This document shows positions 7,756 through 64,000 of a stretch of 64,000 nt of DNA, piece after piece. The position numbers and the translations under genes were made by a program. The DNA is from Pseudobdellovibrionaceae bacterium (GTDB taxonomy: Bacteria; Bdellovibrionota; Bdellovibrionia; Bdellovibrionales; Bdellovibrionaceae): assembly GCA_021731025.1 (NCBI GenBank), contig JAKFYD010000007.1, positions 62,001 through 126,000 of the forward strand. Direction: 5' to 3'. The notes below the pieces were generated by a model. It had not been told where the DNA came from. It did no database searches and worked only from the letters and a program-made list of their open reading frames with translations. Each line of letters starts with the position of its first letter. The stretch's first letter is position 1.

Positions 7756-9567
7756 TTAGCGATTCCCGCCGGCATCATAACCCATGCGGCCCTGAGCCGA
7801 ATTCACTCCCAAAGCTCGACAGCGTTTTTCGCCGACTTCACTTCGTGAGCTTCCACAACACATTCCCACTTCAACCATCAGCCGCTGCTGATGTTGGGTG
7901 GCGTTCAAAGTCCCACCAACGTAGTCGATAGGACTTCCACTGCGAAGTTTTTGTCCCACGGGATACTCCGAGTAATAAGTGGGATCATTGTAATTCGAAA
8001 TGCGCTGTTCAAGTTTTTCATTATTAAGTAGTCCTGTTTTTCGTTTCAGCGAAGTTCCCAGATCTAACTTTTTGTAACGGACTTGCTCGGGGATTCCGTT
8101 CTGGTAGCTGATATAAAAACCGCCTTTGGGTAAAACATCTTTTTCGGGACCTTTGACATCCCAAATTGTTTCTCGAAGTTCTCCAGTGGGAGATGTCTTT
8201 GTACGAATGTTAACGCTCGAAGTGTAACCCGCCGGTTGATCAATTTCGAAACCCTCATCGGAACATTTCACGCCCCTTTTTGGTTCAACGTAAGTTTTAA
8301 AAACCGAACTCATTTTAAAACAAAGATTCGGATCCGCATCCAATTCTTTTTTCTGATCTTCCCAATCCAAGCCTAAAAAATCTTTAGTTTTAGGAGTCAC
8401 TTCCAATACGGGCCGACCTTTATCATCGCAATCGACGTAGGGTGATCCTTTAAGGCAATCTTTATGGCTCTTGTAGTAGTAGGCCATCGAGCTCACATCA
8501 TAGACATCATAAGCGACCGCTGCCGGGGCGTTGACGAAATGGGAAGCGACTCGAGTTCCTGCCTTACCGACGGCCCATCGCGCGCCAGAAAGGCCGGCAT
8601 GGTAAGCCCGCCGCGCATTCATGGATCCTGTCGTGTTTATGACTGGAACCATGGCATGTGCCATTGACCGAGTTTTCGATGAAATGGTTCCATAATCCTT
8701 TGCCGCCAAGTCCTGAAGACGTTTCGCTTGTTCTAGGCTCGGAGCTCTCTGACCCACTTGGTAGTGGAGCTTTTTCATTTCAGCTTTTAATTCGTTAAGT
8801 TTTTTCAATTTATAGTCTTTGCTGGGATCAGTTTTAAGTTCGATGTGTTTATTGACAGAATCGATCTCAGACTCGCGAAATCCTGCATTTAAAAAGATTT
8901 GTTTATCGTCGAGAGAGATCTTTTTTTTGCTCGTTACAGCCTCTTCCAACTGTTTGTAAAGAGTATCAGTGTAACTTTGTCGAGCTTCAAATTTTTTAAT
9001 TCCGGGCGAGTCTCCGAATTCTTGGCGCAGTTTTGAAAAATGTTCTTGCTCAATTTTACGAGCCCAATGAGCTTTCTTTTCAGGATCAGTTTCTCTCGCG
9101 TAGGTGTCCGCATATTTTTTAAAACTTTCATCGGGAAAGCCAGTTTCATTCAGGAGTGCAAGGCGACGATCGAATACGATTTGGGACTTTCGGGTTTCAT
9201 TAGTTAAAAATTCTGGCTTAACTCTTTGATGCTCAGCAATTTGATCTTCAATATCTTTTTCTGCTGATTTCAAGAGTGGATCGTACTGTTCTTTGAGAAG
9301 CAAATTGGAATTCGCTTCATTAATATTAATTCCGCCCCACATTTTTCGAGCAGCTTGTGAGCCCAAGCGATTGCCAACGCGTTCACCAATTTTGTTTTCA
9401 CTGAGTAGCCCTAAAACCGATTTGCAGTTATTCAAATTTTCACTGGATTCGCAAACCACAGCCTGACTGATTTGTTCGAGCTGTTCTTTGTTTAAACGGC
9501 ATTCTTCAGCCCAAGCGAAGAAACCCATCTGCGAAATGAAGAAGGCTAAGTTAATCAATTTCACCAT
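7756..9567 (-). CDS. Large secreted protein of unknown family, TIGR02147 locus 1
   Basis: The product has 603 residues with a signal peptide ending FFAWA before EECRLNKEQL. Residues 60-300 are charged and strongly helical, probably coiled coil (SAEKDIEDQIAEHQRVKPEF, LKKLNELKAEMKKLHYQVGQ). A small hydrophobic segment lies around residues 320-350 (ARWAVGKAGTRVASHFVNAP), followed by a cysteine-containing beta-rich part (CLKGSPYVDC, CFKMSSVF, GVKC, GMCCGSS). It overlaps the end of the upstream secreted gene by seven bases and belongs to the operon headed by the frameshifted TIGR02147 regulator. I do not recognise the family. It could be an effector delivered outside the cell. Confidence 0.7.
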   Translation of the reverse strand: MVKLINLAFFISQMGFFAWAEECRLNKEQLEQISQAVVCESSENLNNCKSVLGLLSENKIGERVGNRLGSQAARKMWGGININEANSNLLLKEQYDPLLKSAEKDIEDQIAEHQRVKPEFLTNETRKSQIVFDRRLALLNETGFPDESFKKYADTYARETDPEKKAHWARKIEQEHFSKLRQEFGDSPGIKKFEARQSYTDTLYKQLEEAVTSKKKISLDDKQIFLNAGFRESEIDSVNKHIELKTDPSKDYKLKKLNELKAEMKKLHYQVGQRAPSLEQAKRLQDLAAKDYGTISSKTRSMAHAMVPVINTTGSMNARRAYHAGLSGARWAVGKAGTRVASHFVNAPAAVAYDVYDVSSMAYYYKSHKDCLKGSPYVDCDDKGRPVLEVTPKTKDFLGLDWEDQKKELDADPNLCFKMSSVFKTYVEPKRGVKCSDEGFEIDQPAGYTSSVNIRTKTSPTGELRETIWDVKGPEKDVLPKGGFYISYQNGIPEQVRYKKLDLGTSLKRKTGLLNNEKLEQRISNYNDPTYYSEYPVGQKLRSGSPIDYVGGTLNATQHQQRLMVEVGMCCGSSRSEVGEKRCRALGVNSAQGRMGYDAGGNR

Positions 9568-9944
9568 TGTTTATCATTCCTACACTTGACGAGATCTCGT
9601 CGTTTTCCCTTAAACTGAGTTAAAAAAGTCTTTGCCACGCAGGCTCCAACATTCCGACCCAGTTCCATTCCTTCTTCGGGCCATTGTACTATTTTGGGAA
9701 TTTTAGAACTTTTTAAACAATTAAAAGTGAGCGGTTTTACTAAGCGAAGACATTGTTCGCGGTTCGGGATATAACACTCGTAAAAATAATCACCTTGTTT
9801 GCAAAACTCGTTGGGATAGGTATTCAAAAAAAGTTTTTGCCACTCGAGGGATTTCATTCTTTCGGGAAAGACTTGAGCTTTCCCTGCGTATCCAGGTAGG
9901 GCCATCAAGCTGAAAAACAAAATGCTCGCTAAGATTTTGATCAA
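9561..9944 (-). CDS. Small secreted cysteine-containing protein, TIGR02147 locus 1
   Basis: This 127-residue protein has a signal peptide (MIKILASILFFSLMALPGYA) and six cysteines in the mature part (FCKQGDYFYEC, QCLRL, FNCLKS, GACVAK, VKCRN), which suggests three disulfides and periplasmic or extracellular stability. It begins at TTG, overlapping the TGA stop of the upstream TIGR02147 gene (TTGA), with AAAGGG upstream. The same start/stop arrangement is seen at 28416. The family is unknown. Confidence 0.7.
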   Translation of the reverse strand: MIKILASILFFSLMALPGYAGKAQVFPERMKSLEWQKLFLNTYPNEFCKQGDYFYECYIPNREQCLRLVKPLTFNCLKSSKIPKIVQWPEEGMELGRNVGACVAKTFLTQFKGKRRDLVKCRNDKQW

Positions 9945-10718
9945 GCTGGACCCTTTGTCAGAGGGAAAAGAGAGATGCTCATCAGGTAAAGCTCTTTGCA
10001 GTTTCCACCTGTTTTCAAAAGTCGACTCATATCGCGACGAAACTTTTGAGTTAACAGTCGAGCCTTCGGCAAGTTCTTGAGGTCAGTGGCCATCACCATG
10101 GTGGATTGCTCCCGTCGCTCGATGGGAACTTCATCCATGGCGGTAATGGCTTTGCGTAAGAATTGTTTTTGATTCTCGCGACGTTCCGCTGAAGTTTGCC
10201 CTGGCTGATAGTTAAGACCAAGATACAGGTCGAACCATCGAGCTCTTTTTCTGGGCGCTCGGAGGAAGATTGATGATCATGCCACTGGATTGCAAAGAGG
10301 AAAGAGCTTCGCTCGCTTGAGTCAGCGAGATATCCAGTTTTTTTGCGATCCACTCGGGCACGGGTTGAAATCCACGGAGCAGGGGAAGCTCGATGATGGC
10401 AGCGTAGTACCAATGATGCATTCTACGAAGTTGAGCTTCGTCCATGACTTTGTACAGCTCGCCAGGTCTTTTCCCCCGTCGATTCGATAATTTGATTTTT
10501 TGGATCCACTCATCGCCCAAATTGAGTTTCTTTCCCAAAACAACAAGTCGAGCACGGCTTAGTCCTTTTTTGCCGCGAATAAATTTATGCAGATGAGAAG
10601 CATCGATATCAAGATGGCGGGCATAGGCCCTTAAACTGTAGTTTTTGTTTCTATTGTATCGTTTTGTATACTCATGGTTAACGGCTTCAATAAGCTCATG
10701 TACTAATGTTGCTTCCAT
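9941..10718 (-). pseudogene. TIGR02147/DUF4423 regulator, frameshifted
   Basis: The N-terminal frame (10718 down to about 10250) carries a helix-turn-helix-like part (NKNYSLRAYARHLDIDASHL) and the family's middle segment (MHHWYYAAIIELPLL), then stops early at 10212. The family's C-terminal part continues one frame over (RARWFDLYLGLNYQPG, REQSTMVMATDLKNLP, YLMSISLFPLTKG) and ends at 9941. The two halves join if one A is removed from a run of five A (T-run 10246-10250 on the plus strand): 778 bases then become exactly 259 codons, the normal family size. It is either a recent pseudogene, a phase-variable gene or a sequencing error. Proteins of this family are predicted transcription regulators, numerous in Bdellovibrio and Fibrobacter. 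Confidence 0.8.
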
Positions 10719-27522: not shown

Positions 27523-27541
27523 CATTTTACAATGTAAAATG
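27523..27541. promoter_or_regulatory. Palindrome upstream of the TIGR02147 locus 2 regulator
   Basis: CATTTTAC-AAT-GTAAAATG is a perfect 8+3+8 inverted repeat 57 bases before the regulator's ATG, a plausible operator for that gene's own product or another dimeric regulator. Confidence 0.5.
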
Positions 27542-27597: not shown

Positions 27598-28419
27598 ATG
27601 GAATTGCAGAAGTCTGAAAAAATTGAACGGCCGGTGTTGGCTAACTTTGATGATCCTATCGATTTTTTGCGGGCAATGGCTGATTACCTTAAGCAGATTG
27701 AGAAAGATTTTACGATTGTTAAAGGGACTCGGAACTTAAGAAAAGTTTCGCCGGCTTTAGTGACTTTGGTGCTGCAGAAAAAACGTCAGCTGACTTTGGA
27801 TCGCGTTGATGAATTTTCTAAGCTTTTTCGATTAACCGCCGCCGAAAAAAGTTATCTTCGCTTGTGGTTAGAAAAACGACTCAAACCGGAAGAGGGGATA
27901 GAAGCCAAACCGAATTTATCTAAAAGTAGAAAAGAAGTTTCAGCTCATATTCTTAAAGATTGGATCAATGTTTACGTTAAGGATTGCTTCCAAATCCCGG
28001 AAATCCAAGCTCAACCTGATCTTGTTTACCGACAACTTGCAAATTTAGCCCAGCCCCAAAGAATAGCTAAAGCCATTGATTTTCTACTTCGTGAAGGTCA
28101 TCTTCGAAAAACTTTAGAGGGTAAAATCGTTACGGAAACTCCACTCACGGTCACCGATCCGCAAATTTCTAATGACAAAGTTCGCAAATTTCACGCGGGA
28201 GCCTTGTCTTTAGCGAAAACGGCTTTGGAAAGCCATCCTGCTTCGGAACGCTATGCAAATACTTTTATTATGCCTTTGAATGAAGCTCAGTACCAAGAGC
28301 TCGTCCAGTTGATTCAGGAGTTCTCGGAAAAAATAAAAGACTTTGCAGCACAAACCGAGGGCCATCGTTTGTATCAGCTCATTGTCAATGTCAGCCCAAC
28401 CGGAGGGAAGTTCGTTTGA
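27598..28419 (+). CDS. TIGR02147/DUF4423 family regulator, locus 2
   Basis: This 273-residue intact member has an N-terminal region (DDPIDFLRAMADYLKQIEKD, then LRKVSPALVTLVLQKKRQLT) that fills the place of the family's helix-turn-helix part. The conserved C-terminal domain has LLREGHLRKT, KFHAGALSLAKTALESHPASERYAN, MPLNEAQYQELVQLIQEF and the final YQLIVNVSPTGG. Family members are predicted regulators with no defined ligand. The TGA stop overlaps the TTG start of the next gene (TTGA), so regulator and exported protein are made together. Confidence 0.85.
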   Translation: MELQKSEKIERPVLANFDDPIDFLRAMADYLKQIEKDFTIVKGTRNLRKVSPALVTLVLQKKRQLTLDRVDEFSKLFRLTAAEKSYLRLWLEKRLKPEEGIEAKPNLSKSRKEVSAHILKDWINVYVKDCFQIPEIQAQPDLVYRQLANLAQPQRIAKAIDFLLREGHLRKTLEGKIVTETPLTVTDPQISNDKVRKFHAGALSLAKTALESHPASERYANTFIMPLNEAQYQELVQLIQEFSEKIKDFAAQTEGHRLYQLIVNVSPTGGKFV

Positions 28420-29594
28420 AAAAATTGATTTTAATCTTTTTACTAGGATCCTTGCAGTCCAACGCATCAACCTTCGTGGGAAACGGCGGGCATGCGGGTG
28501 ATATTGAAGCACAGGTCGCTTTTAAAATCATTCAGGAGACTCTTCGTCAGATCCATGAAAACTCTTCGGCTGGTGATAAATTGTGTGTTTGCTTCCCTGA
28601 TTTAGAAGGACATTCCATTTGCGACACTCTGAAAAAATTAAATGAATCGCAGGGCAAATACTGCTCGCAACAGCTCCGGGAAAACGCTGCGGGTTTATTG
28701 TTAACGACTCAAAAAATTTCCAGTCAGGGATTTCTTTTTACTCGAGATCGAATTCAAGTCGAAAGTCGTAAATCCAAGTATCGCGATGCTGATGCCGTAG
28801 CCAACTTTCATCAGCAAACTCTGATCCTGAATCAAGATCGCTTTACGCAGATGCAAGATTACGAAAAGGTTTTTCTTTTGGTTCACGAGCTCGGTCATTT
28901 GCATTCCTGGAAAGGCGAATCCATTAAAGACGATCAATCTTTGGGGCCTTTCACAGGGGACGAGGGGGGGCGGCAATTTTTAAATTCCGTAGCCGCGGCT
29001 GTCACCATGCAAGCTCTGGAATACCGTACGTTTAACAACTATAAAGATATACTTGAGCGTTCCCAAGGACACAAAGTTCATTGGCTGGAGCTCTCGTCCA
29101 GAGGTACTGAAAACAAAAAGGTTCAATTAGGAGTCAATAAAACTACCGGCTCTTCTTTTTCTTACCGCTATCAGTTCAGCGAACCTTGGGGTGTTTCCTT
29201 TCATCTTGCGAACCAGAATGGTTCGCAAGGTCATTTGACCTCAACTACGGCGAAAGAATTTGTTTCAGCGCAAGGGGTTTTACTGAGCTATCGACTATTT
29301 CCATTTAAGGATCCACTCCGCTATTTTGGGCAATCCCACTTTATTTTTTCGGCAGGCCTGGAAGATTTAGGCGGCCGTTACGAAGTCACCGATACTTACA
29401 CTCCGGCAGAAGCGCGTGCGAATTCCCTTTCATGGAGTGTGGGAGCTAGCTATTACCTTCCGATCAAGTACAATTTCTGGGTGACCTTTAACTGGTCAAA
29501 GCAAGGCCATGACTATTCTTATAAAATTCCTTTTCGTTCGATCGATGTGAAGTCGGATTCCACTTTTAATTTGGGAGTTAGCTATGGATTTTAA
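28416..29594 (+). CDS. Exported HExxH peptidase-like protein with a C-terminal barrel
   Basis: This 392-residue protein has a short signal peptide (LKKLILIFLLGSLQSNAS) and a Gly-rich mature start (FVGNGGHAGD). A helical domain contains the zinc-type motif VHELGH near residue 154-158, with acidic residues after it (GPFTGDEGGRQF). Residues from about 215 to the end alternate in beta-strand pattern with aromatic girdles (SFSYRYQFSEPWGVSFHL, WVTFNWSKQGHDYSYKI) and end in SYGF, the terminal phenylalanine typical of Bam-inserted outer-membrane proteins. So it looks like a peptidase tethered to an outer-membrane barrel. The start is TTG, coupled to the regulator. Activity is inferred from the motif only. 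Confidence 0.7.
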   Translation: MKKLILIFLLGSLQSNASTFVGNGGHAGDIEAQVAFKIIQETLRQIHENSSAGDKLCVCFPDLEGHSICDTLKKLNESQGKYCSQQLRENAAGLLLTTQKISSQGFLFTRDRIQVESRKSKYRDADAVANFHQQTLILNQDRFTQMQDYEKVFLLVHELGHLHSWKGESIKDDQSLGPFTGDEGGRQFLNSVAAAVTMQALEYRTFNNYKDILERSQGHKVHWLELSSRGTENKKVQLGVNKTTGSSFSYRYQFSEPWGVSFHLANQNGSQGHLTSTTAKEFVSAQGVLLSYRLFPFKDPLRYFGQSHFIFSAGLEDLGGRYEVTDTYTPAEARANSLSWSVGASYYLPIKYNFWVTFNWSKQGHDYSYKIPFRSIDVKSDSTFNLGVSYGF

Positions 29595-30798
29595 GCTGTG
29601 TTGTTTACTGTTGACGCTCACGACGACAGTCTCTTGCGTTCGGCAAATTGATTTTACCAAAGGTGATGAAAATATCATTGGCGTACGTCTGGACAAAATG
29701 TCTTCGTTAGTCAATTTTGAAGGTCAAGAGTCCGAAGAGATCACCATCTTCGATGAAAAAAAACGACGCATCCACCAGTTTCAGCTTTCTGATATGGCTC
29801 ATCTGCGCACTTTGAAAGTTCGCGAGCCTGAACAGAAGCACGTGGTGGTCGCCCATGAAAAAGGTCACTTTGTTGTGGATCTTTTTGACCAGCATCTTTC
29901 GGTCTTTGGTAAACAAGGGCAGGTTGAGCATGATCCATTGCAGTTTTCGGGAAATCCCGTGTCGGTGGCTTTTCGTTCAGAGCTGAATTTATTTATTATG
30001 TATGATGATTTAAATTCCGTGGGAATAATGAAATTGGACAATTATGGAAATATCTTAAAGCGATGGGTTGGTGGTCCTGTGTTAAAAGATGACAGCACCA
30101 TCACTTCGGGCGATCTTTTGGCGAATGGAAATATGGCTCTCGGTTTGAGCAATGGAAATATTGCCCTTGTCGACATTGAACAAAGCCTGTTGCTGGAAAA
30201 ATGGAAATCAACAGAGTTTAATCCTTCATTGGGAAAAATTTCGTGGGTTGGGCCGGTGCGGGATAAGCCGAACCAAATTTTTGTTAAAGCCGGTAATGAA
30301 ATCGCTCTGATTGACGTCGTAGCACAGATTAAACTGGATTCGGTGGTTATTTCGGGAGCTAATTTTGAAAAGCTATCGAAAACTTTTGATCCCCACATTG
30401 TCGTGAGAACTTCGGGATGGCAGGGAGAAATTACGGTTTACTACCCGCAAAATTCAAAAATTGTGAAACGCGCTTTGCAAAAACAAGATTTCTATCTTCT
30501 TTCCTCGCAGCTGAATCTGACCAGCGATCGTTGGAGTTTTGTCGAGAGCGATCAGAAAACAGATTGGTTTGATAATTCAGTGAACACCGTGAAAAACACT
30601 CGCCGAGTGAAAATGTTTCGCCTGAGCGATATGGCGGCTTTAAAAAGAATGGATGTGGCCGCAGAAGCTCAAGTTTTACTTTCGAGCTCGTCTTTATTTG
30701 CGCTTTTTCCTTCGGACTTTGGTTATGCGGCTAAATTTGATTTACTGACGGGGGTAGCTAAGGAAGCCAGAATGTTTAACGTGAAAGACATGGATTGA
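29584..30798 (+). CDS. Lipoprotein, probable beta-propeller, TIGR02147 locus 2
   Basis: The 404-residue product starts inside the end of the upstream barrel gene (11-base overlap). The N-terminus MDFKLCCLLLTLTTTVSC is a lipoprotein signal with a TTVSC box. The rest is a series of short beta repeats (KRRIHQFQLSDMAHLRTLKV, SGNPVSVAFRSELNLFI, LLANGNMALGLSNGNIALVD) consistent with a seven-bladed propeller; the motif SDMAxLK(T/R)L occurs near both ends, suggesting blade closure. No catalytic residues are recognisable. It probably acts with the peptidase/barrel protein encoded just upstream. It converges on the next gene with one base between stops. Confidence 0.65.
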   Translation: MDFKLCCLLLTLTTTVSCVRQIDFTKGDENIIGVRLDKMSSLVNFEGQESEEITIFDEKKRRIHQFQLSDMAHLRTLKVREPEQKHVVVAHEKGHFVVDLFDQHLSVFGKQGQVEHDPLQFSGNPVSVAFRSELNLFIMYDDLNSVGIMKLDNYGNILKRWVGGPVLKDDSTITSGDLLANGNMALGLSNGNIALVDIEQSLLLEKWKSTEFNPSLGKISWVGPVRDKPNQIFVKAGNEIALIDVVAQIKLDSVVISGANFEKLSKTFDPHIVVRTSGWQGEITVYYPQNSKIVKRALQKQDFYLLSSQLNLTSDRWSFVESDQKTDWFDNSVNTVKNTRRVKMFRLSDMAALKRMDVAAEAQVLLSSSSLFALFPSDFGYAAKFDLLTGVAKEARMFNVKDMD

Positions 30799-62201: not shown

Positions 62202-63126
62202 TTACAGTTTTAAATCCTCACGAATCTGAGCGAGAGTCTTTCGAATAAACTCTGTCATCGTAGCATTTTTATTTGCATAATATTTTTCAGCTGCGTTGGG
62301 CGAAAAGCCCGCGAAAAATCCAAGTCTTGGACCATCAAAAACATAAGTGTATTTTAAGTTTCGGTAGCGATCGATTATGGTGACTTCATTGATTCCATTA
62401 TAAACAGAAAGAATGATCTTAATGCGAGTATTAGGGTCCGTCGACAGAAGCAAGGTACCGTCATCTAATAATGGTTTTAAAACCGACTGACTGGATCCTC
62501 CTGGATTGCTGGATTCTCCCCACTTAGGGTATTCAGGATAAATTTCCCCGAAAGCTACCAACCAAGGAATTTTTTTGGATTTTACGGATAAGAAATACCG
62601 ACTGAGTTCTTGAGAAACTGTCGCTGGATTATACTGAGTCAATATTGATGTGATATGTTCCACAGTTTGCTCATCCTGATTCATAGGCTCTGAAAGAGTT
62701 CTGTGAAGAGCTTCGTGAATCACCATCTGCACAAGTTGTGTTGGCGAGAGTGCATTGATGAGTTTAGGATAAATACGAGTGGGTGCTCCCGGATAAAGAT
62801 CAGTAGAAGCGACTAAAAATCCTCCAATTGGATAATCGCCAGGATTTCGATTTGGCGCTATAGCTTTATCATAAGGAACAAGAATGTATTTAGAAAACTG
62901 GATTTCGTTTTTTTAAAGATTTTAATTCAGGAAAATTTACGTCGGCCTGTAAGTTAAGTTGATCAATCAGAGTTATGGCTTGATTGACTGCTACCTGCAT
63001 ATTTTCCGATTGAGCTTTATAGTCTTGAAATCCTTCAAATGAAAGAAAAAGACCACCGCCCCCTTCGCGACCAGCGACGGACAAATTTGAGATAAATAAG
63101 AGTGAAATAAAAAAAATGTTTTTCAT
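62202..63126 (-). pseudogene. Exported HExxH peptidase-like gene, frameshifted, TIGR02147 locus 3
   Basis: The first frame (63126-62890) gives a signal peptide (MKNIFFISLLFISNLSVA) and a Gly-rich start (GREGGGGLFLSFEGF). The second frame (to 62202) continues without a gap in sense (FSKYILVPYDKAIAPNRNPG, PTQLVQMVIHEALHRTLSEP) with the zinc motif HEALH and a later glutamate (DEQTVEHI). Removing one A from a run of seven (T-run 62908-62914) joins them into 308 codons. It is therefore one gene with a single frameshift. The ATG overlaps the regulator's stop (ATGA), with GGAG upstream. The mature start resembles that of the locus 2 protein. Confidence 0.75.
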
Positions 63127-63923
63127 AACTTTTCTCCTGAATTACAGTTTGATATTGGATAAAGGGATATTGCTAAATTGTAGACTTCTAAAAGATTCGA
63201 ATCGTTTTCCAAAAACTGACACATTTCACGCCGAAATTCTTTTATCCGTTCGATCGCTTCTGGAAGTTTGTTGGGGTTAATGGGCATTGTCATCGAAGTG
63301 TGATTTCTAACTGATGGTGGCAATGTCTCGAGTGCCCACAAGGATTTTTCTAAAACCTGTTTCTGCAATTTTTTGTTGGCAGCACTTGTAATGCTACTGC
63401 CGGCAATATTAGTTGAGAATCCGCTCGATGAATCAATCCATTTCCCTTTTTTATCGACTTTGATCAATCCTACGCGAAGTAATCGCTCGACAGCGGCATT
63501 CGCTTCGCTCTTTGTTATACCGAGAGACTTTGTAAGCCATGCCAAATCATTTTTGAAATTCTTTACCTTCATAAGCTCTAAGATGGCATAATGATACCAG
63601 TCAGAAATGATAGCAAAGGTATCAAGAGTGATTTGCTCGAAGGCTAAACTTGATAACTGATTTTTGTTTATGTTATTTGTATACTGACTAAGCTCAGAAA
63701 GGTTTAACCCTAAGGCTAGACCTAAGCGCTCGATACTGGCTTTTGTAATTGCTCTTTTTCCATTAAGCATGTCGGATAAGGCCGAGGGGCCTATTCCTAA
63801 AGCCCTAGCAAAAGCACGCAATGAATATTTTGGATTTCGACGACAGCGCTCGATCAACTCTTGCTGAAGCAAAAGCCTAAAGTCTTTGAAGTGTTGTTTT
63901 AAATCAGAATTCACAGTGTGCAT
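63123..63923 (-). CDS. TIGR02147/DUF4423 family regulator, locus 3
   Basis: With the ATG at 63923 the protein is 266 residues, the family norm; an in-frame ATG at 63998, at the window edge, would add 25 atypical residues. The N-terminal helix-turn-helix-like region is clear: NPKYSLRAFARALGIGPSAL, then MLNGKRAITKASIERLGLAL. The family core follows (ISDWYHYAILELMKVKNF, AVERLLRVGLIKVDKKGKW) and the C-terminal VRNHTSMTMPINPNKLPEAIERIKEFRRE, described here by its key residues, leads to YNLAISLYPIS. It overlaps the downstream exported peptidase-like gene by four bases. Confidence 0.85.
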   Translation of the reverse strand: MHTVNSDLKQHFKDFRLLLQQELIERCRRNPKYSLRAFARALGIGPSALSDMLNGKRAITKASIERLGLALGLNLSELSQYTNNINKNQLSSLAFEQITLDTFAIISDWYHYAILELMKVKNFKNDLAWLTKSLGITKSEANAAVERLLRVGLIKVDKKGKWIDSSSGFSTNIAGSSITSAANKKLQKQVLEKSLWALETLPPSVRNHTSMTMPINPNKLPEAIERIKEFRREMCQFLENDSNLLEVYNLAISLYPISNCNSGEKL

Positions 63924-64000
63924 TTGGGAAAGCAATATATTAGTTTTTTTAGGTTCACAAACATCTTTGGAACAAAGTGTACCAATCAGCTGGTACATGG

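Follow-up and report, generated by a model that had tools for sequence, protein, structure and literature searches.

At positions 27598-30798 of the window analysed here, a 64,000-nucleotide stretch of a Pseudobdellovibrionaceae genome (GCA_021731025.1, contig JAKFYD010000007.1), a gene for a TIGR02147/DUF4423 regulator runs directly into a gene for an exported protein, which raises the question of whether such genes form a single unit and what that unit might do. The locus comprises the following features:

27598..28419, forward strand: TIGR02147/DUF4423 regulator (TIGR02147 E 7e-22, DUF4423 E 9e-19)
28416..29594, forward strand: exported partner of 392 aa with a signal peptide, GNGG, HELGH and an outer-membrane-barrel-like C-terminal part
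28479..28490, forward strand: GNGG motif, partner residues 22-25, near the mature N-terminus; invariant in the 5-member window subfamily
28881..28898, forward strand: VHELGH motif, partner residues 156-161; H, E and second H invariant in the window subfamily
29130..29591, forward strand: beta-barrel-like C-terminal part of the partner (PF13505 E 5.9e-6; 27.0 bits, slightly under the cut-off of 28.7)
29584..30798, forward strand: third operon gene, 404 aa, exported and by its sequence a likely lipoprotein (TVSC), of no family

The stop codon of the regulator and the start of its partner overlap by four bases (TTGA, 28416-28419). This three-gene operon keeps its order in four genera: in three genera besides this one, the partner homologue lies between an upstream TIGR02147 gene and a downstream counterpart of the third gene, and the 11-base overlap between partner and third gene is the same in 4/4. 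Alignment of the five members of the window-partner subfamily shows HExxH in all of them and an invariant Asp172, at most a candidate for the third metal ligand. A profile of this subfamily matches the main partner family described below over the HE region (probability 91.5%, E 8.5e-7).

The sequence-only reading that singled out this locus had described the same arrangement at two further places in the window, both on the reverse strand:

9941..10718, reverse strand: TIGR02147 regulator of locus 1, as two TIGR02147 pieces in different frames, with a frameshift near 10230
9561..9944, reverse strand: exported partner of locus 1, 127 aa, NttA-like (PF24275 E 1.2e-4, below cut-off)
7756..9567, reverse strand: second exported gene at locus 1, 603 aa, with no homologue in 24 relatives
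63123..63998, reverse strand: TIGR02147 regulator of locus 3 (E 3e-35)
62202..63126, reverse strand: partner of locus 3, in two frames, with a frameshift near 62910

The four-base overlap was recovered at all three loci (TTGA at 9944-9941, TTGA in the operon above and ATGA at 63126-63123), and in 3/3 a gene with a signal peptide comes next. Two other parts of the description were borne out in part. The regulators at 27598-28419 and 63123-63998 are intact, scoring 78 and 122 bits against the TIGR02147 cut-off of 50; that of locus 1 is not one frame, as the segment 10718-10212 closes at a stop and the C-terminal part runs on in another frame to 9941, leaving no full-length open frame. Similarly, HExxH and a glycine-rich N-terminus had been ascribed to two of the three partners, which holds for the window partner. 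In the locus-3 partner a frameshift at an A7 run near 62910 breaks the gene in two: the first frame (63126-62890) carries the signal peptide and GGGG and ends after 78 aa, and HEALH falls in a second frame (62732-62202). For the frameshifts at both loci, sequencing error and real decay are indistinguishable from one genome. The locus-1 partner (9944-9561) has neither a GNGG nor an HE motif. The T2SS substrate NttA comes closest to it, at a score below cut-off, and by sequence this partner is of a different kind from the GNGG-HE partners. Downstream of the broken locus-1 regulator there are thus two overlapping exported genes, 9561-9944 and 7756-9567, and no homologue of the product of the latter was found in 24 relatives.

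To place these loci in context we searched the 3.49-Mb genome of origin with the TIGR02147 profile, obtaining 20 matches, two of which are the pieces of the locus-1 gene. By eye and by script, 13 TIGR02147 genes adjoin an exported protein with a glycine-rich stretch and a hydrophobic-HE motif. The partner lies directly downstream in eight (L002, L003, L004, which is the frameshifted locus 3, L005, L006, L011, L012 and L013), is divergent in four (L009, L010, L016 and L018) and convergent in one (L015). These 13 served as the discovery set, and the pattern was then tested on 40 regions of relatives picked by regulator alone, with neighbours not inspected and genes called by script. Adding the window, which overlaps the discovery set, gave 47 TIGR02147/DUF4423 genes from Bdellovibrionota, and 42 of them have a co-directional next gene. 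In 36 cases this gene begins within 25 bp, and 34/36 of these close followers are predicted to be exported, as compared with 35/150 background gene pairs (P 1e-15, odds ratio 56). The full signature of signal peptide, glycine motif and HE was present in 20/42 followers, 3/343 background pairs and 0/60 genes beside TetR/LysR regulators. One heuristic for signal peptides was applied to both the TIGR02147 and the control side. The earlier reading had named, as the outcome that would count against it, an overlap with exported genes equally common for other regulators; when this was evaluated, 4/13 close followers of TetR/LysR regulators were exported, against 34/36 for TIGR02147 (P 2e-5), and the claim was not refuted.

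Not every TIGR02147 gene has a GNGG-HE partner, and those without one include high-scoring genes in many genera. Five high-scoring members from several genera (L001, L033, L034, L038 and L040) have no downstream partner and instead have co-directional genes upstream; possibly such genes have a different, conserved role.

The linkage was also evaluated from the opposite direction. Named genomes were scanned, blind to the regulator, using a partner motif drawn from the closer aligned set; this found 17 partner loci, with TIGR02147 adjacent in 14/17 by gene calls and 16/17 by six-frame search. By title these loci belong to Bdellovibrio (including B. bacteriovorus kdesi), Bdellovibrionales, Oligoflexia, Silvanigrellales, Bacteriovoracaceae, Pseudobacteriovorax and a few broader labels. 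In 24 relatives a partner profile gave 67 matches, and a TIGR02147 frame lay at most 1.5 kb away in 29/30 loci fetched. Across the phylum the profile is present in 100/192 genomes, and the regulator adjoins the partner in 8/8 top loci examined. A regulator query further led to the Bdellovibrio plasmid pBdHAGR1, which carries a TIGR02147 regulator, a four-base overlap and a GNGG partner with LHELLSL; BLAST searches of plasmids and phages, with one partner query each, returned no partner homologues. Cassettes number up to tens per genome, with uneven copy number between genomes. One region (L070:3154-16147, G022) holds three TIGR02147-partner cassettes inside 13 kb.

The four-base overlap is itself dispensable, since regulator and partner are divergent, spaced or reversed in some cassettes; survival of the pairing in divergent or reversed order is as expected for a regulator that sits beside its target. 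A few partner-family genes have no nearby regulator. At L069:7825-9845 (G003), for example, two partner-family genes lie near one regulator, the second (9131-9845) with no TIGR02147 frame within 700 bp.

Could these associations reflect nothing more than compact-genome packing, with exported genes following these regulators by chance? Short overlaps are indeed common, occurring in 86/343 background pairs of these genomes. However, the odds ratio over background, the reciprocal recovery from the partner side, the motifs in common and the operon kept in four genera already contradict this, and we give the packing explanation almost no credence. Instead, evidence from both directions, against background, from numerous genera and families, and from a plasmid strongly supports the regulator and exported protein as one recurring unit, a pattern much stronger than three loci imply.

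By sequence comparison the partners constitute an unnamed family, defined by a signal peptide, a GNGG-type motif about six residues into the mature protein, an invariant His-Glu helix and variable C-terminal parts. In 21/34 coupled partners the glycine motif is found no more than 20 residues from the predicted cleavage site, as compared with 3/147 other exported proteins. Among 16 aligned partners GG, C34, D118, C129, Q133, L168, H169, E170, Y173, S186 and R190 are invariant. The position of the second histidine in 62 adjacent exported HE proteins is occupied by Y in 32, W in 9 and H in 8, and the L018 partner and one of the three at L070 have the metzincin pattern HExxHxxGxxH. The HExxH minority is probably catalytic and the HExxY/W majority reworked, in which case partners of the HExxY class would be inactive proteases. 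Most partners are 200-550 aa long, and their C-terminal parts range from barrel-like (window) to an FGE-sulfatase-type domain behind the GNGG-HE domain (L086:5471-6910; PF03781, E 5.5e-43) to none at all (L096, domain-only, 227 aa); exchange of these parts seems to be common.

An AF2 model of L096, which belongs to the main class, reached pLDDT 79 and pTM 0.80. Fold search with this model gave no PDB match at E < 0.001, the best plausible one being the minigluzincin selecase (4qhi, E 2.3), and a PDB sequence search with the partner returned nothing. Given that the zincin reading is built on the motif and weak fold matches, we use "zincin-like" as a lead. Identity with ImmA/M78 was considered and rejected (Peptidase_M78 E 0.06, below cut-off; signal peptide present).

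The regulators have an N-terminal HTH, a winged HTH and two long C-terminal helices, and DUF4423 was matched in 27/27 of those aligned. The AF2 model of the window regulator (27598-28419) had a pLDDT of 83 and a pTM of 0.57. Relatives searched contain up to 45 TIGR02147 matches per genome. No paper available as open-licence full text names TIGR02147, and one names DUF4423 (PMC12546842), where Bd3700 (DUF4423) appears in a table of proteins elevated during growth within prey. The function, partner or operator of TIGR02147 (Fsuc_second)/DUF4423 (PF14394) is not described in these papers.

The HTH of the regulator resembles HigA (PDB 2icp, E 3e-5), and this, along with the many copies, their uneven number per genome and carriage on a plasmid, would suit a toxin-immunity or addiction pair with the regulator as a HigA-like antitoxin. 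With an exported partner and a cytoplasmic regulator, direct neutralisation is unlikely, and a few partner-family genes have no regulator close by; we regard such a pair as very unlikely. Still less probable is a peptide-pheromone pair of the RRNPP type, in which the partner would give rise to a signal peptide that is taken back up. The pairing of an XRE-type HTH regulator with an exported product would fit this, and a fold search with the regulator, which produced no significant match, included weak, non-significant hits to PrgX and ComR. Against it, no TPR domain was found, the regulator having DUF4423 and a C-terminal part of winged HTH and helices, and the partners are mostly far from peptides in the length given above, with the domain-only partner predicted to fold.

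If the regulator acts on its own cassette, an operator might be expected nearby. One candidate precedes the window regulator:

27523..27541, no strand assigned: candidate operator, palindrome CATTTTACAATGTAAAATG, 75 to 57 bases ahead of the regulator start

The motif TTTAC-N3-GTAAA occurs upstream of the orthologous regulator in 4/4 genera, where median upstream identity is 28%, and in 500 shuffles any common palindrome reached a maximum of 2/4. The genome of origin contains a single copy of the exact window 13-mer, TTTACAATGTAAA, a count that fits a local operator and not a regulon. Genome-wide, TTTAC-N3-GTAAA was not enriched (12 vs 13 in the control), so we claim no wider regulon. Another cassette group has GGTAA/TTACC half-sites in 10/10 orthologues, six of them as exact GGTAATTACC, with a null maximum of 3; both groups are therefore above their null. 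Smaller orthologue groups have palindromes of the ACATTT-N3-AAATGT and GACTCCA-N-TGGAGTC types, and one of the five groups, B, has no palindrome in common. Different paralogue groups thus keep different candidate palindromes. When pooled, inverted repeats upstream of the 47 coupled regulators were not stronger than those upstream of other genes (P 0.6), which is the expected outcome if palindromes are not unusually frequent here and it is their meaning that differs; of the two tests, the orthologue-by-orthologue comparison is the stronger. At L002 the stretch from 50 to 16 bases ahead of the regulator start, where an operator would be expected, contains a long palindrome, CACTGTTAACAC...GTGTTAACAGTG.

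Regulator and partner distances are weakly and significantly correlated (r 0.21, P 0.0015), and the nearest neighbour was common to both in 12/49 cases with 1 expected; part of this correlation may reflect species relatedness. The gene arrangement, the local palindromes, this co-divergence and the pairing in divergent or reversed order together suggest that each regulator controls its own cassette, and the DNA supports local autoregulation through a cassette-specific candidate palindrome.

These data allow us to propose, with good confidence, that the window locus is one copy of a widespread Bdellovibrionota cassette of an autoregulated two-HTH regulator and an exported zincin-like envelope protein. 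The linkage, the export signals, the common domain and the conserved palindromes are direct results of the computation. From them we infer that the cytoplasmic TIGR02147/DUF4423 factor, through its HTH and winged HTH, would bind the palindrome upstream of its own gene and control a single transcript that also encodes the partner, usually by way of the stop-start overlap; the same inference extends to the sign of control and to a partner that acts in the envelope or towards prey. The partner would leave by Sec with GNGG at its start, carrying a zincin-like His-Glu domain, probably with catalytic activity where HExxH is intact and reworked to HExxY/W elsewhere, and its C-terminal parts (barrel, FGE-type fold and others) would be swapped among copies.

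A related scheme is secretion-coupled feedback, where the partner, before export, would bind the regulator and keep it in check until export or cleavage sets the regulator free. Tight one-to-one linkage, the frequent four-base overlap and some co-divergence are compatible with it, yet the regulator has no recognised secretion-chaperone-like part, translational coupling is lost in divergent and reversed arrangements, and partner C-termini vary freely; we consider it improbable. The sequence-only reading had suggested sensing or restraint through export or cleavage, or a partner delivered as an effector, and none of these drew support from the data. Likewise improbable is a broader proposal, under which the exported GNGG-HE protein would have its site of action on prey or envelope, outside the cytoplasm, and the cognate regulator would respond to the state of its own partner. 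Tens of orthogonal pairs per predator genome, each cassette with its own switch, would then constitute a new class of signalling or recognition system.

For the autoregulated cassette, the consequence is that TIGR02147 genes, whose role was previously unknown, are now linked to an unnamed exported family and to specific candidate operators. Genes that had formed a blank area in the genomes of predatory bacteria can now be treated as testable pairs, for which the conditions or prey that switch each cassette and the targets of the exported proteins can be sought, and cassettes with their own candidate control site offer a first testable role for these genes.

The cassette resembles several known systems. 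As in ImmR-ImmA, an HTH regulator gene adjoins a gene for an HExxH protein, ImmA being an M78 HExxH protease; in contrast, the cassette partner is exported and most partners have lost HExxH. Minigluzincins such as selecase, and other zincins, are similar in the His-Glu helix and weakly in fold, but the match is not significant and most partners have HExxY or HExxW. The RRNPP regulators PrgX, ComR and NprR are likewise HTH regulators linked to an exported product, whereas the cassette regulator has a winged HTH in place of a detectable TPR domain and its partner is a structured protein. The cassette regulators themselves are members of TIGR02147 (Fsuc_second)/DUF4423 (PF14394) above the curated cut-off.
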